Shown here: positions 19,821 through 26,252 of the stretch, piece by piece
How the letters are laid out: every line of letters begins with the position of its first letter
How positions within the stretch are numbered: the first letter of the stretch is position 1
Source of the DNA: Bradyrhizobiaceae bacterium
Lineage (GTDB): Bacteria > Pseudomonadota > Alphaproteobacteria > Rhizobiales > Xanthobacteraceae
Assembly (NCBI GenBank): GCA_947481635.1
Contig: CANKHJ010000004.1
Location: 1 to 64,000, forward strand
Reading direction: 5' to 3'
Length of the DNA: 64,000 nucleotides
Position numbers and translations under genes: made by a program
Notes under the pieces: generated by a model
What the model was told of the DNA's origin: nothing
Seen by the model: the letters and a program-made list of their open reading frames with translations, nothing else
Database searches by the model: none

Positions 19821-20012
19821 AACGGTCTCAGTTCGTGCGAATCGGGCGTTTTATCAAGGGTTTTCAGTGCGCCGGACTAGGACATGAAACCCCGGGAGGG
19901 GTCAACGGGAGACGAGCGGGCCGATCTTTGGCTGACCCCTTTCAGAAACGGCGGCGCTAGGGCATTTAGACGAGCCGCCGGAACCCGGTTTCGTGACCGC
20001 ATGGAGCTTCAA

Positions 20013-20720
20013 ATGTCCGACCTCTCGTCCTTCCCAATCACCAAGAAGTGGCCGGCGCAGCATCCGGACCGGCTGCAGCTGTATTCCGTGCCGACCCCGA
20101 ACGGGGTCAAGGTCTCGATCATGCTGGAAGAGATCGGGCTGCCCTACGAGGTGCACGCCATCAATTTCGGTCAGAACGAGACCCAGTCGCCGGAATTCCT
20201 GTCCCTGAACCCGAACGGCAAGATCCCGGCGATCATCGATCCGGATGGTCCGGGCGGAAAGCCACTCGGATTGTTCGAGTCCGGCGCGATCCTGCATTAC
20301 CTCGCCGACAAGACCAAGAAGCTGCTGCCAGCTGACCCGGCGCGGCAATGGGAGACATTGTGCTGGCTGCATTTCCAGATGGCCGGCATCGGACCGATGT
20401 TCGGCCAGGTTGGCTTCTTCCATAAGTTCGCCGGCAAGGACTACGAGGACAAGCGGCCGCGCGACCGCTACGCCAACGAGGCCAAGCGGCTGCTCGGCGT
20501 GCTCGACAAGCGGCTCGAAGGCCGCGAATGGATCATGGGCGAATACACCATCGCCGACGTCGCTACGCTTGGCTGGGTGCGCAACATGCCCGGGATGTAC
20601 GAAGCGCGCGAACTGGTCGGGTTCGATACCTTCAAGAATGTCGGGGCGTGGCTGGAGCGCGGTCTCGCGCGTCCGGCGGTACAGCGCGGCCTCAACATTC
20701 CGAAGCGTCCGGGGACCTAG
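20013..20720 (+). CDS. Glutathione S-transferase family protein (YfcG/YghU-like)
   Basis: The 235-residue protein has an N-terminal thioredoxin-fold GST domain with LYSVPTPNGVKVSIMLEE, the cis-proline segment GKIPAI, and LFESGAILHYLA, which binds the gamma-glutamyl part of glutathione. A C-terminal helical domain follows. The TPNG motif is typical of the Nu-class (YfcG) disulfide-bond reductases. ATG at 20013 has GGAG six bases upstream; longer in-frame starts exist. It is the last conserved gene before the low-G+C TIR-NACHT gene. Confidence 0.88.
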   Translation: MSDLSSFPITKKWPAQHPDRLQLYSVPTPNGVKVSIMLEEIGLPYEVHAINFGQNETQSPEFLSLNPNGKIPAIIDPDGPGGKPLGLFESGAILHYLADKTKKLLPADPARQWETLCWLHFQMAGIGPMFGQVGFFHKFAGKDYEDKRPRDRYANEAKRLLGVLDKRLEGREWIMGEYTIADVATLGWVRNMPGMYEARELVGFDTFKNVGAWLERGLARPAVQRGLNIPKRPGT

Positions 20721-20886: not shown

Positions 20887-23800
20887 ATGCCCCCCCAATC
20901 AGTGGACGAGGTCGAGCGTTTTCTAAAGGCCAATAAGACAGGCGTTCCAAAAGGCGCCCGTGTCCTTCTGGAAAGTTTTATTCACCTAGCTCGGGGGGCC
21001 GGGACAGCTCGCTTAAAAGCTATAGATCTTCGTCGCGATCTTCAGTTGCGCGAGGGGCGGGTCGTGTATGCAGCTGGACTCCGTCAGCGACTCAAGCGGG
21101 CGAACAATCTCCTCAGCAGGAGGCACGCCACTTTTGAACTTAAGAGCAGCGCCGGTGATGTGGTCGCACAACCGAACGGCGTGCTGGACGCGCGCCGGGA
21201 CGAAGAGGAGCTGCAAGATAAACTCACCGGGATGTCAAACGAACTCGCCCGCGTTGATGCTGATGGAATAGTCGAGCCCTTCGCCAGTCGCGAACGAGAT
21301 ATCCTTTGGGTCTTTTTCTCATACGCTTGGCTCAACGAAGAAGAACATAAGATTCAGGATGAGTTTTTTCATCGTCTGGAAGAGAAATTGGCCTATCCGC
21401 CGGCCCAATTCGCGCATCTGCCGCGGATAGTTTTGTGGCGCGACACCCGAAATCTCGCCAAATCCACTACCGGAGACCAACAGTTGGATGACGCATGCGA
21501 TCGTGCGTTCCTCGGCGTGCTGTTGGTATCGAATAAGTATCCGCATAGTCAGGCGTGCGTGCGCGAGGCAGATTTCTTTGTCACCGCCAACGGCGACAAC
21601 TGCCCTGGAAAGTCGTGCATCGTTGTCGGAGTAAATATTCTTCCTAGCCAGATGCCCGCCCGGTTCACAGCAAAAACTAGGATCGCGCAACTCGGCCCAA
21701 AAGGTGAGCATCTCATTTCATTATGGGCATCAGGCAATACTGCTGACAGAACGCAGTTTGTAGATCAGCTCGCAAATCAGGTTTTCATCGCAGCGAATGA
21801 TTTCATAAGAATCCCTCCCCTCCAAAAAAAAAAGGACGCGGAGCGGTTTTTTGCGGCGTTCAGACCTACCGCCAATTCGCGCGAGGTGATCGAATCTTTT
21901 GCAAGACCCGGCAACGTCTCACCAAAAATCGTTTCAACTGGTGCTCTTGACGACGTCAAGGAAGGCGTCCCTATCGTAAAACATCTGATAGACTGGGCCT
22001 CTGCCACGACTGGTGATGCTCCTCGCCTCATAGCAATTCTGGGGGAGTTCGGCATGGGAAAGACAGTTACGTGTCAGCTTTTCACGCAGAAGCTCTTGGA
22101 GCTAAGACTGGATAATCCCGACCTGCCTCTTCCTGTTTATTTTGACTTGCGTGAAGTGGATCGGGTCGGGGAGGACGGCTCAGCCGATTTAGAGACGCTG
22201 ATCGGTCAGATGCTACGCAAAGCGGGAGAGGAGGCGCCTAGCGCAAGGGAGGTAATTAAGTTCATTCGTGAGCGCGGTGCGATTGTCGTGTTCGATGGAC
22301 TCGATGAGATTACCAACAAACTCTCGTACGATGCAGCCATCAAGCTTTATCGTGAATTGCTAGGTATTGTGCCTAGCGAACTCTGGGTGCGAGACACCGC
22401 CCAGCGCCGAATGTCGCGCCATACCAGAAGGTCAAAGCGTGATTTTGACGGTCCGCGAATAGTTGTCTCTTGCCGAACCCACTATTTCCGAGATGTGGCG
22501 GCTCAACGTGGCTTTCTTACGGGCACAGAGCGATCCAAACTTGAGGCTGACGCGGACATTGCTGCGTACTTCATGCTTCCATTCAACGATCAGCAAATAG
22601 AAAAGTACCTCGAGCTCCAATTAGGCAGAGAACAGGCGAACCGAGTAATTTCGCTAATCAAGGACACGTACAATCTCCGTGAACTCGCGGAGCGACCAAT
22701 TCTACTCCGGTTCATCCGCGAGACGTTTGAGCAGATCGAGCGCGAAAAGTTAGCTGGTCGGACCATCAATTTGACCCGCCTCTACGACATTTTTGTCGAT
22801 CGGATATTCGAACGTGACAACCCTAAGCACTTTATTCCAACACACGAAAAGCAACGGATTCTGCAGGCGTTGGCGCTCCATCTTCATCGCCGAAATCAAA
22901 CAGAGATTGGGAACGATAAACTAGAAGAGTGGTTTCAAGATTTCATTACGACTTCGCCGCGGCTCGCCGCGGCTCTGCAAGGCGCGGATGGCTTGAAGCT
23001 TTCCGAAATCTTCGCGCAAGATCTGCGCAATGCAAGTTTCCTTGTGCGGCCGGGGGAGAAGGCCTTCCGTTTTGCTCACACCTCGATTCGCGAACATTTC
23101 CTAGCAACCGGTCTGTACTCCGCGGTGTGCAGCGGAGAGGGTGAACGCATTTGGAATGTGCCACCACCTTCGGCCGAAACCATCGATTTTCTCCTTCAAC
23201 GGCATGCTATCGAGGAATCTCCGGAAAGGAGAGACTTCGAAAAGGGTTTCGTGACCCTTTTAGAACCCGAGCGCAGTGTTGCTGTGCGTCGGCTTGCCTT
23301 TGAAGTCTGGCTTGCTGCGCACAAGAGGGGGGCGCCCCTGGCGCGCCCAACTGTTCTTGGTCTAAGCAATCTTGATCTTCGTCTTCACGTGTTCGCGGGT
23401 GTCCCTGGGCAGTTACTCCCGCTTCAGCACAGCGTGTGGAAAGAGACGCAGCTTCATCAAACAGAGTTTAGGCATGCCGACTTAACAGGGGCAGACTTTT
23501 CTGATTCGGAGGCACCTATGACCCGTTGGATCAACTGTCAGTTAAGGTCTGCAGTCTTCGGCCATGCAAATCTAATCGGAGCACAGTGGCGAAAGTGTAA
23601 TATTCCGAGGGCCGCGCTGAACGAAGCGAAATTGCATGCGGCTCGTGCAACTAGTTGCCGACAAGGCGATACGACTTGGCGACCTCAACCTAAAATACCT
23701 GTCGATGCGACCAATTGGCGAGCTCGATCCCGATCATTTGCGACCCACTATTCGCTTGCGGTGGGTAAAGCCGATGGTAAGAACGTTATAGTGTCGGGCG

Positions 23801-25746
23801 GCTATGACAAGGCGATACGCGTATTTGACCTTGCCAGCGGGTCGCAAGTTGCTCTCCTCGAAGGACATCAGAATATCGTCCGCAACGTCGTTGTCGCGCC
23901 GCTTGACGGCCAAAATGTTGTTGTTTCGGGCGGATACGACGAGACGATCAGGGTGTTTGATCTTGCCTCGGGTACGCAGCTTGCTGTGTTGGAAGGACAA
24001 CCTGTCAACTCCATTGCAGTCGCGTCGCTCGGGGAGAAAAGCGTTATCGTAACAGGCGGCGACGACGGAGTGATCCGCGTACTCGATCCGTCCAGCGGTG
24101 CTCAGCTTGCCTTGCTTAAAGGGCATCAAGACGGTGTCAGCTGTGTTGCTGTTGCATCGCTCGGCGAACTAGATGTTGTCGTATCTGGCGGCTTGGACAA
24201 GATGATCCGCGTATTCAACCCGTCTACTGGCGAACAACTTGCTGTGCTGGAGGGGCATCAAGACAGTGTCAGCTGCATTGCCGTGGCATCGCTCGACGAA
24301 AGGAAAGTCGTCGTATCTGGCGGCCTGGACAAGATGATCCGCGTATTCGACCTTGCTACCGGCGAACAACTTGCCGTGCTGGAGGGGCATCAAGGCGCAG
24401 TCACGAGCCTCGCTGTGGCCTCGCTCGAGGGGGCGACTGTCGTCGTGTCAGGCGCGGTGGACAGAACGATTCGAGTTTTCGATCTCGTCAATGGCGCGCA
24501 GCTGTCTACGCTGGAAGGCCATCAGGGCTCTATCCACACGGTTTTGGTAACGCAGCTGGATGGGAGGAATGTGGTCGTGTCGGGCGATGATAAGAACACG
24601 ATCCGGCTATTCGATCTCTTAGGAAGAACACAGCTTGCGGTGCTGGGAGGATACAACGACGTCGTTAGCTGCGTTGCTGTGGCGTCCCTTGACGGTCGGG
24701 ATGTGGTCGCGGTCGGTAGCTTTGATCATAACATTAGGGTGGTTGATCTCACCACCGGAACACCGCTGACCTTATTGAAAGGACATCAGGGCGCTCTCAC
24801 TAGCCTCGCAGTGACCTCGTTGGGGGCGAAGACTGTGGTCGTGTCGGGCTCGACGGACAAGACGATTCGAGTTTTCGATCTCGCTAGCGGCGCCCAGATG
24901 ACCACGTTGGAAGGGCACCAAGATGCAGTCCGAAGCATCGCGATATCACTCCTTGACGAAAAAAAAGTAATCGTGTCAGGCGGCGACGACAAGATAATCC
25001 GAGTTTTCGATCTTGTTAGTGGGGCGCAGCTTGCGACGCTCGGAGGATGTTCGGCTTCGATCCTCGCGGTAGCGACGGCGTCACTCAATGGTCGGGAAGT
25101 AGTCGCGACGGGCTGTGATGACGGGACAGTCCGAGTCTTCGATCTTAGTAGTGGCGCGCAACTTTCTGCGCTCGAAGGGCATGAGGCTGCTGTTCGCAGT
25201 GTCGCGCTGACATCGCTTGACGGAAAGATGGTGGTGGTGTCGGTGAGTACCGACAAGACAATTCGAATCTTCGATATTGCGAGCGGTAAAGAACTCGCCG
25301 TCCTAAAGGGACATCAAAAAACTATAGATGTAGTCTCAGTGGCATTAGTGGGCGGCAGAAGTGTGATCGTTTCCGGTGGAAGAGACGATACGATTCAGAT
25401 GTTCGATTTGGCGAGCGGCGCACAACTCTCCAAGTTAGACGATCATCAGGATTGGGTTACGAGCGTTGCCGTGGCATCGTTACACGGGCAAGGAGTTATC
25501 GTGTCGGGCGGATATGATGGGACAATGCGTATATGCATTTTCAACCCGCAAACATTCGATTTTGTTAGCAAACTCTATGTTGTTCCGACAACGGGGTCGA
25601 CGCTCAGACTTGTGCCCGATGGAGATAGAGGCGATCTCGTGTCCTTTGCGTCGCCTGACGCGTGGCGAGACTGGGCCGCGAGCTACGACGCTGGTGGAGT
25701 TGGATACATGACTGACATCGACGATATGCCGGTTAGCGCCAACTAA
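20887..25746 (+). CDS. TIR-NACHT-pentapeptide-WD40 protein (NLR-like STAND immune receptor candidate)
   Basis: This 1619-residue protein is the only clearly accessory gene here. Residues 1-137 are unassigned. A TIR domain spans about 138-305 (FFSYAW at 143-148, IVLWRDTRNL, LLVSNKYPHSQACVRE); E227 is in the position of the catalytic Glu of NAD-cleaving TIR domains. A NACHT NTPase follows: Walker A GEFGMGKT at 386-393, Walker B FDGLDE at 469-474, SCRTHYF at 528-534. FAHTSIREHFLA closes the helical region. Pentapeptide-like repeats cover about 854-925 and fourteen WD40-like repeats about 956-1561, enough for two seven-bladed propellers. GGAG lies eight bases before the ATG. Two sampled lines inside are 53% and 47% G+C, against 75% at 26341-26400. 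By analogy with bacterial NLR-like proteins I infer that ligand sensing by the propellers triggers NTP-driven assembly and TIR NADase activity, perhaps against phage. No partner gene is adjacent. Confidence 0.85.
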   Translation: MPPQSVDEVERFLKANKTGVPKGARVLLESFIHLARGAGTARLKAIDLRRDLQLREGRVVYAAGLRQRLKRANNLLSRRHATFELKSSAGDVVAQPNGVLDARRDEEELQDKLTGMSNELARVDADGIVEPFASRERDILWVFFSYAWLNEEEHKIQDEFFHRLEEKLAYPPAQFAHLPRIVLWRDTRNLAKSTTGDQQLDDACDRAFLGVLLVSNKYPHSQACVREADFFVTANGDNCPGKSCIVVGVNILPSQMPARFTAKTRIAQLGPKGEHLISLWASGNTADRTQFVDQLANQVFIAANDFIRIPPLQKKKDAERFFAAFRPTANSREVIESFARPGNVSPKIVSTGALDDVKEGVPIVKHLIDWASATTGDAPRLIAILGEFGMGKTVTCQLFTQKLLELRLDNPDLPLPVYFDLREVDRVGEDGSADLETLIGQMLRKAGEEAPSAREVIKFIRERGAIVVFDGLDEITNKLSYDAAIKLYRELLGIVPSELWVRDTAQRRMSRHTRRSKRDFDGPRIVVSCRTHYFRDVAAQRGFLTGTERSKLEADADIAAYFMLPFNDQQIEKYLELQLGREQANRVISLIKDTYNLRELAERPILLRFIRETFEQIEREKLAGRTINLTRLYDIFVDRIFERDNPKHFIPTHEKQRILQALALHLHRRNQTEIGNDKLEEWFQDFITTSPRLAAALQGADGLKLSEIFAQDLRNASFLVRPGEKAFRFAHTSIREHFLATGLYSAVCSGEGERIWNVPPPSAETIDFLLQRHAIEESPERRDFEKGFVTLLEPERSVAVRRLAFEVWLAAHKRGAPLARPTVLGLSNLDLRLHVFAGVPGQLLPLQHSVWKETQLHQTEFRHADLTGADFSDSEAPMTRWINCQLRSAVFGHANLIGAQWRKCNIPRAALNEAKLHAARATSCRQGDTTWRPQPKIPVDATNWRARSRSFATHYSLAVGKADGKNVIVSGGYDKAIRVFDLASGSQVALLEGHQNIVRNVVVAPLDGQNVVVSGGYDETIRVFDLASGTQLAVLEGQPVNSIAVASLGEKSVIVTGGDDGVIRVLDPSSGAQLALLKGHQDGVSCVAVASLGELDVVVSGGLDKMIRVFNPSTGEQLAVLEGHQDSVSCIAVASLDERKVVVSGGLDKMIRVFDLATGEQLAVLEGHQGAVTSLAVASLEGATVVVSGAVDRTIRVFDLVNGAQLSTLEGHQGSIHTVLVTQLDGRNVVVSGDDKNTIRLFDLLGRTQLAVLGGYNDVVSCVAVASLDGRDVVAVGSFDHNIRVVDLTTGTPLTLLKGHQGALTSLAVTSLGAKTVVVSGSTDKTIRVFDLASGAQMTTLEGHQDAVRSIAISLLDEKKVIVSGGDDKIIRVFDLVSGAQLATLGGCSASILAVATASLNGREVVATGCDDGTVRVFDLSSGAQLSALEGHEAAVRSVALTSLDGKMVVVSVSTDKTIRIFDIASGKELAVLKGHQKTIDVVSVALVGGRSVIVSGGRDDTIQMFDLASGAQLSKLDDHQDWVTSVAVASLHGQGVIVSGGYDGTMRICIFNPQTFDFVSKLYVVPTTGSTLRLVPDGDRGDLVSFASPDAWRDWAASYDAGGVGYMTDIDDMPVSAN
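21824..21833 (+). other. Ten-A homopolymer at the TIR-NACHT junction
   Basis: Ten consecutive A residues encode part of Q313-K316 in the linker between TIR and NACHT. Loss of one A leads to a TGA at 21887-21889, and gain of one A leads to a TGA at 21948-21950. Either slip would therefore produce a TIR-containing protein of roughly 335-355 residues without the NTPase and sensor. Confidence 0.9.
23752..25570 (+). repeat. Fourteen tandem WD40-encoding repeats
   Basis: About 130 bases recur fourteen times in the 3' part of the TIR-NACHT gene. Each encodes a variant of VVSGG-D-TIRVFDL-SGAQLA-LEGHQ-V-SVAVASL. Copies at 24178-24262 and 24310-24394 differ at about 7 of 85 positions, so some units duplicated recently. 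A second homopolymer of eight A residues is at 24959-24966. Confidence 0.9.
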
Positions 25747-25940: not shown

Positions 25941-26252
25941 ATGCAACAAGACCGACGCAAAAGCCCGCGCCGCAAGCTCCGCTATCCCGCCCGAATCGAT
26001 CTCGGGGGTGACAATCCGAGGTGGGATTGCACTTTGCAGGACATTTCCGAAGGCGGCGCGAAGCTGCAACTGATCGGTCCGGACGTGCTCCCGCAGGAAT
26101 TCAACCTGCTGCTTGCGATGGGCCCGAAGACCAGCCGCCGCTGCAAGCTGGTGTGGCGGAGTGAAGATTATATCGGCGTTCAGTTCCTCGGCGCGGCGAT
26201 CTTTGACGGAAGCGTCCACCGCAGCGGCGCATCGGTGAGCCTCGACTGCTAA
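25941..26252 (+). CDS. PilZ domain protein (putative cyclic-di-GMP binder)
   Basis: The 103-residue protein is essentially a single PilZ domain. It has the N-terminal RRKSPRRKLRYPAR segment containing the RxxxR-type nucleotide-binding motif and LQDISEGGAKL, matching the D/NxSxxG motif. Both are needed for cyclic-di-GMP binding in characterised members. It has no output domain, so it probably acts as an adaptor. It stands immediately downstream of the TIR-NACHT insertion; 194 bases between them contain no feature I recognise. Its G+C matches the core genome, so it is unlikely to have come in with that gene. Confidence 0.85.
   Translation: MQQDRRKSPRRKLRYPARIDLGGDNPRWDCTLQDISEGGAKLQLIGPDVLPQEFNLLLAMGPKTSRRCKLVWRSEDYIGVQFLGAAIFDGSVHRSGASVSLDC

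Follow-up and report, generated by a model that had tools for sequence, protein, structure and literature searches.

The stretch analysed here (the window) comprises the first 64,000 nucleotides of contig CANKHJ010000004.1 from a Bradyrhizobiaceae bacterium, and contains an intact gene, starting with ATG, for a protein of 1619 amino acids that unites a TIR domain, a NACHT NTPase, a pentapeptide-repeat helix and a long WD40 array. We consider it probable (roughly 70%) that this protein is a single-chain receptor of the STAND (signal transduction ATPases with numerous domains) type, comparable to the nucleotide-binding leucine-rich repeat receptors (NLRs), whose WD40 part senses an invader, whose NACHT domain oligomerises and whose TIR domain consumes NAD+. 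Its relatives form a widespread bacterial family, apparently without a name so far, whose members exchange the killing domain and keep the rest of the chain constant.

Pfam gave a weak TIR signal in the window protein (TIR_2, E 0.006; TIR, E 0.01; both under the Pfam cut-offs), and two lines of evidence, independent of each other, settled the assignment. A TIR profile based on 38 relatives, but on neither the window protein nor its near-ortholog L068, matched residues 142–302 with E 2.7e-20 and 68.6 bits, the best of 1000 shuffles reaching 8.1. Likewise, in an AlphaFold model based on a 40-sequence alignment (mean predicted local distance difference test score, pLDDT, of 84), which replaced a single-sequence model with a mean pLDDT of 40, residues 139–306 adopt a TIR fold, similar to the TIR domain of plant RPP1 (7xoz; Z 13.7, root-mean-square deviation, rmsd, of 2.5 over 135 residues) and to the NAD-bound TIR domain of RUN1 (Z 12.5). 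The NACHT domain was recognised by Pfam (PF05729, E 4.6e-8, 33.5 bits versus a cut-off of 26.7) and by a profile from the same 38 relatives (E 9e-52), and the modelled core aligned with NLRC4 from the activated inflammasome (6b5b; Z 19.0, rmsd 4.3 over 383 residues), resembling also NLRP3 and NOD2. Structure prediction, named in the original prediction as the check on both folds, thus found each of them.

The motifs quoted in that prediction, GEFGMGKT, FDGLDE and the glutamate E227, the last within SNKYPHSQACVREADFF, all occur in the window protein at the residues ascribed to them. Glutamate occupies the E227 position in 34 of the 38 aligned relatives, and the Walker A and Walker B motifs, R530, P604 and H731 are invariant across the aligned family. 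Invariant NACHT motif residues are expected for a functioning NLR switch. Together with the conservation of E227, they argue, at the level of sequence, for a live switch and a live enzyme.

Pentapeptide repeats were detected by Pfam (E 1.8e-13) and their helix is present in the AlphaFold model, so that Pfam, the leave-out profiles and the model bear out the order TIR-NACHT-pentapeptide-WD40 claimed for this single gene. Two seven-bladed propellers had also been proposed, with which the 14 repeats of about 44 residues are consistent. The 137-residue N-terminus, described at first as unassigned, appears to contain a domain of winged-helix-like order (helix-helix-strand-helix-helix-strand-strand), modelled over residues 1–120 with pLDDT values of 72–94 up to residue 120, where relatives carry the Pfam domain NNH6 (NACHT N-terminal helical domain 6). 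NNH6 was found at this position in 31 of 40 family members, some of which have other effectors behind it, such as EAL-like ones. Pfam, NNH6 included, gave no match in residues 1–137 of the window protein, and the family N-domain profile scored 5.6 bits there, under the shuffle scores. This profile does match L068 (E 8e-7), which is 64% identical to the window protein over residues 4–835, and the assignment therefore follows from position and from L068. Since the N-domain is retained in front of effectors that change, we take it to be an accessory module.

Relatives were gathered by searches of whole genomes and of genome contigs. The contig scan found no loci when queried with the window protein alone and 155 when queried with an alignment, of which 80 were kept. 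More than 80 proteins, mostly from metagenome-assembled genomes and distributed over 11 phyla, share the NACHT-pentapeptide-WD40 chassis, with the general plan [N-domain]-[effector]-NACHT-pentapeptide-WD40 and the effector exchanged. An alphaproteobacterial protein of 1587 amino acids (L010/L118) shows the domain order of the window protein over its full length. Sorting 88 proteins with profiles yielded 42 TIR effectors (including the window), 32 nucleoside-phosphorylase-like, six EAL-like, two Mrr-type nuclease and six other, counts that are skewed to TIR and phosphorylase since the query alignment contained both. A tree of the NACHT region required at least 11 changes of effector label, at least six of them forced by well-supported branches for the TIR label. 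In this tree the window protein pairs with L068, from a metagenome-assembled Xanthobacteraceae genome, with a support of 99; the deeper placement of the pair carries no support mark.

Several members differ in the region ahead of the NACHT domain. The nucleoside-phosphorylase-like domain replaces the TIR in L011, L072, L099 and 29 others, which parallels the fungal PNP-NACHT NLRs. Seven proteins (L025, L026, L027, L028, L029, L031 and L035) show an NNH6-type N-terminus, an EAL-like domain, NACHT, pentapeptide repeats and WD40. The EAL-like domain, of the c-di-GMP phosphodiesterase superfamily, reaches a Pfam E of 0.02 in one relative, seems by eye to retain several EAL motifs and is unexpected on an NLR-type chassis. 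An Mrr-type nuclease domain lies ahead of NACHT in L032:5703-9038, L033:2059-7431, L036:5204-8812 and L037:6084-8771, preceded in L032 and L033 by a ParA/MinD-like domain. The effector region of two chassis proteins, L124 and L145, matched no local profile, and L174, which lacks NACHT, combines a TIR with what looks like a transmembrane segment and with 14 WD40 repeats.

The WD40 repeats of the window protein share a mean identity of about 50% and their synonymous sites are saturated, indicating an old, settled array. L068, conversely, has about six repeats that are 85% identical and differ almost solely at a few positions. Among the 43 family members with at least five full repeats, mean repeat identity is at least 65% in 30, and several besides L068 exceed 80%. 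We regard high repeat identity, absent from the window copy, as the more telling and distinguishing trait of the family; it has likewise been described in fungal NLRs (PMC4986451), and highly repetitive WD40 arrays in cyanobacterial WRAP-STAND proteins (PMC9218822). In those 30 members the most variable positions of the repeat are 8, 9, 10, 12, 28 and 30 of 42, with a pooled dN/dS (ratio of nonsynonymous to synonymous substitution rates) of 1.53, versus 0.30 elsewhere; these values come from pairwise comparisons between repeats, which are not independent, in short-read assemblies that may collapse repeats. Diversifying selection on WD40 positions has been reported for fungal receptors of the HNWD/HET-E type (PMC12222747), and our six positions coincide with the fungal ones at an offset of two, the best of 42 offsets (none of 20000 permutations was as good), this offset being fitted and not taken from a fungal sequence. 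As a control, ordinary WD40 proteins without NACHT were found to vary most at the same positions, so that we take the pattern as the signature of a binding face of generic kind, and we rejected diversifying selection as proof of immunity.

Assembly affects these arrays. In one genome (G095), the TIR-NACHT gene L009 ends at the end of contig C64, and L175, at the start of contig C1, opens with pentapeptide repeats that match it and with WD40 repeats that are nearly identical; assembly thus breaks at such arrays, and WD40 lengths in metagenome-derived genomes are therefore unreliable.

The gene is of foreign origin and was acquired recently. It sits between a glutathione S-transferase (GST) gene and the pair PilZ/yggS, with leuS and a holA-like gene adjoining, and was rightly described as a lone gene; these neighbours surround a low-GC insertion (Table 1). 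Its GC content is 54%, versus 63%, and the drop from 62–69% to 51–58% coincides exactly with the gene; GC at third codon positions (GC3) is 0.56, versus 0.75–0.84 in the neighbours. Searches of 60 genomes from its own family and order yielded no full-length relative. In a family relative (L046), yggS, GST and leuS are consecutive without the receptor gene, representing an empty site, and L068 is located in a different gene context. Low GC and GC3, patchy occurrence, the empty site and the different context of L068 fit a horizontal transfer in which this gene arrived by itself. The locus showed no integrase, and its two intergenic edges share no repeat of at least 9 bases. The small PilZ gene was not detected there in the leuS loci of relatives; because its GC3 is normal (0.75), it perhaps lies outside the inserted segment.

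Table 1. Positions, in the window, of the receptor gene, its predicted parts and the flanking genes.
Feature	Coordinates	Strand	Basis
Whole receptor gene: N-domain, TIR, NACHT, pentapeptide helix, 14 WD40 repeats	20887..25746	+	ORF, Pfam, AlphaFold
Winged-helix-like N-terminal domain, aa 1-120; NNH6 position in relatives	20887..21246	+	Model, family profiles
TIR domain, aa 139-306, probable NADase effector	21301..21804	+	Model fold and leave-out profile
E227 codon, predicted catalytic Glu	21565..21567	+	Glu in 34/38 relatives
NACHT NTPase including helical and winged-helix parts, aa 360-820	21964..23346	+	PF05729; NLRC4 6b5b Z 19
Walker A GEFGMGKT, aa 386-393 (K392)	22042..22065	+	Invariant G386, G389, G391, K392, T393
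Walker B FDGLDE, aa 469-474	22291..22308	+	Invariant D470, D473, E474
Pentapeptide-repeat beta-helix, aa 823-937, probable spacer	23353..23697	+	PF13599/PF00805; Z ~15 to pentapeptide proteins
14 WD40 repeats of ~44 aa, aa 944-1557, probable double propeller sensor	23716..25557	+	PF00400, 14 stretches; repeat list
Glutathione S-transferase (GST) gene, upstream flank, left edge of insertion site	19884..20720	+	
Small PilZ gene, downstream flank, between receptor gene and yggS	25941..26252	+	

The folds, the conserved motifs and the more than 80 relatives, which vary in the effector only, strongly support the original proposal of an effector, an NTPase switch and a sensor in one chain; its other part, a role of the window protein in defence against phages, is one that we infer. 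In the resting state, NACHT would hold ADP and the TIR domains would be kept apart. A ligand that the invader (a phage or other mobile element, most likely) makes or exposes would bind the WD40 propellers, upon which NACHT would exchange ADP for ATP and oligomerise in the manner of NLRC4. The clustered TIR domains could then build an NAD+ site with E227, and cleavage of NAD+ would cause the cell to stop or die ahead of the spread of the invader. The pentapeptide helix may serve as a rigid spacer joining switch and sensor, and the N-terminal winged-helix-like domain as an accessory module. Activation of TIR domains by clustering, and loss of NAD+ in abortive infection, are established in other systems (PMC13174449).

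Several observations weigh against this interpretation. Besides the settled WD40 array of the window copy, PADLOC-DB contained no family matching the whole protein at E ≤ 1, its parts producing marginal matches only (E 0.009–0.02). The phage and viral collections contained no close relative of the receptor gene, which is thus not known phage cargo. Of the 136 genes neighbouring 24 relatives, few matched defence models (PD-T4-6-type kinases, a type I specificity subunit, PDC-S02, PDC-S13 and RtcR), as compared with three of 132 control genes, which were drawn from genomes other than those of the relatives. Any such excess, and with it the link to defence islands, is weak at best, and taken alone it is no demonstration of a role in defence.

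The TIR domains, when clustered, might instead turn NAD+ into a messenger of the cyclic ADP-ribose type that activates a separate effector encoded at another place in the genome, which is how Thoeris works. Products of this sort are common among bacterial and plant TIRs (PMC10022894), and the PADLOC model of ThsB, the Thoeris TIR, matches 21 of the 40 family members, other TIR models also matching many relatives. Yet no effector gene adjoins the receptor gene, and the same chassis bears phosphorylase and nuclease effectors, which would act directly, making this explanation unlikely. A search of the genome for STALD (ThsA-type) proteins gave no match, but the control was likewise unmatched; and a genome search with Pfam TIR_2 missed even the receptor gene and so says nothing on the absence of other TIRs.

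As in fungal incompatibility, the WD40 part could also sense a foreign or altered cell protein, in kin discrimination, conjugation or an encounter with gene transfer agent particles, with the TIR killing or arresting the cell. Fungal NACHT-WD40 receptors whose repeats are highly identical behave in this way (PMC12222747, PMC4986451), many family members carry such repeats and the defence-island link is weak. Against it, the repeats of the window protein itself are not highly identical, the six variable positions are not specific, and we saw no sign of a partner; we hold it to be quite improbable. Very improbable indeed is a host STAND regulator or scaffold of the MalT type, in which the modelled winged-helix-like N-terminal domain would bind DNA and the TIR would be a non-catalytic contact domain, for E227 is conserved, the gene is foreign and patchy, and exchange of the effector for phosphorylases and nucleases fits a regulator poorly.

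The NLR-like receptor that we favour can be compared with several known systems. Bacterial STAND and NLR-related proteins such as bNACHT and Avs join an effector, a STAND/NACHT NTPase and a sensor in one chain (PMC10907252, PMC12169576), as the window protein does, and for other members protection against phage has been shown (PMC12169576 and references therein). Unlike these, the window protein has its TIR behind an N-domain, a pentapeptide spacer and a double WD40 sensor, and has no PADLOC match; we found no published test of its clade. Cyanobacterial TIR-STAND/WRAP-STAND systems, with a TIR and a 14-bladed, highly repetitive WD40 part, have been proposed to act in innate immunity (Dunin-Horkawicz 2014, as summarised in PMC9218822). 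That summary places TIR and WRAP on two coupled genes, whereas the window has TIR, NACHT and WD40 in one chain, plus a pentapeptide helix; no cyanobacterial source occurred among the 80 loci retained, out of 155, in our contig scan. Fungal HNWD NLRs (HET-E, HET-D) and PNP-NACHT-repeat NLRs exchange effectors, among them a phosphorylase and a HET domain for which kinship with TIR has been proposed (PMC4986451, PMC12222747). HNWD proteins share with the window protein a NACHT with two WD40 propellers, and with its family the exchange of effectors, but the window protein lacks a HET domain and its repeats are about 50% identical, versus more than 80% in HNWD.

TEP1 also couples a TIR-like NADase to NACHT and WD40. 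In Swarozyc/TEP1, as proposed for the window protein, the executioner is a TIR-like NADase, there of the DUF4062 type (PMC13174449), whereas the window TIR is of the TIR_2 type; a DUF4062/TEP1 kinship found no support, since Pfam gave no DUF4062 match in the window TIR region or among 40 family members. With Thoeris ThsB the window protein shares the type of TIR, although here it is fused to its own switch and sensor. A Thoeris-type operon was discarded, as no ThsA neighbour is present at the locus (leuS, GST, PilZ, yggS).

We found no paper using "TIR-NACHT" for a bacterial protein in the open-access literature, subscription papers being largely outside the search. The claim that the domain order matches no named system holds for PADLOC, but proteins of this architecture are widespread, and a plan of the same kind is already on record in the literature on bacterial STAND proteins and fungal NLRs. 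STAND proteins with repetitive WD40 sensors and with effectors that include TIR have figured as putative prokaryotic immune proteins from 2014 on (cited in PMC9218822). What is new is a variant of that known plan and not a new category.

Tentatively, and with considerable doubt, we suggest that this family is what the fungal HET-E class would look like in bacteria: effectors directed at NAD, nucleotides or DNA (TIR, phosphorylase, EAL-like, nuclease) would be exchanged on a single NACHT-pentapeptide-WD40 chassis, and the sensor would be renewed as WD40 blades are amplified and diversified on one binding face, which would provide a heritable, fast-changing repertoire of recognition. If the receptor reading is correct, these proteins would constitute a large, unnamed group of NLR-like receptors, distributed over 11 phyla, mostly outside the PADLOC models and directly testable, with sensor, switch and enzyme in one chain, clear targets for point mutation (E227, K392) and effector swaps already provided by nature. 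The family would also offer a bacterial system in which to examine how the WD40 sensors of NACHT receptors acquire new specificities, so far studied mainly in fungi.
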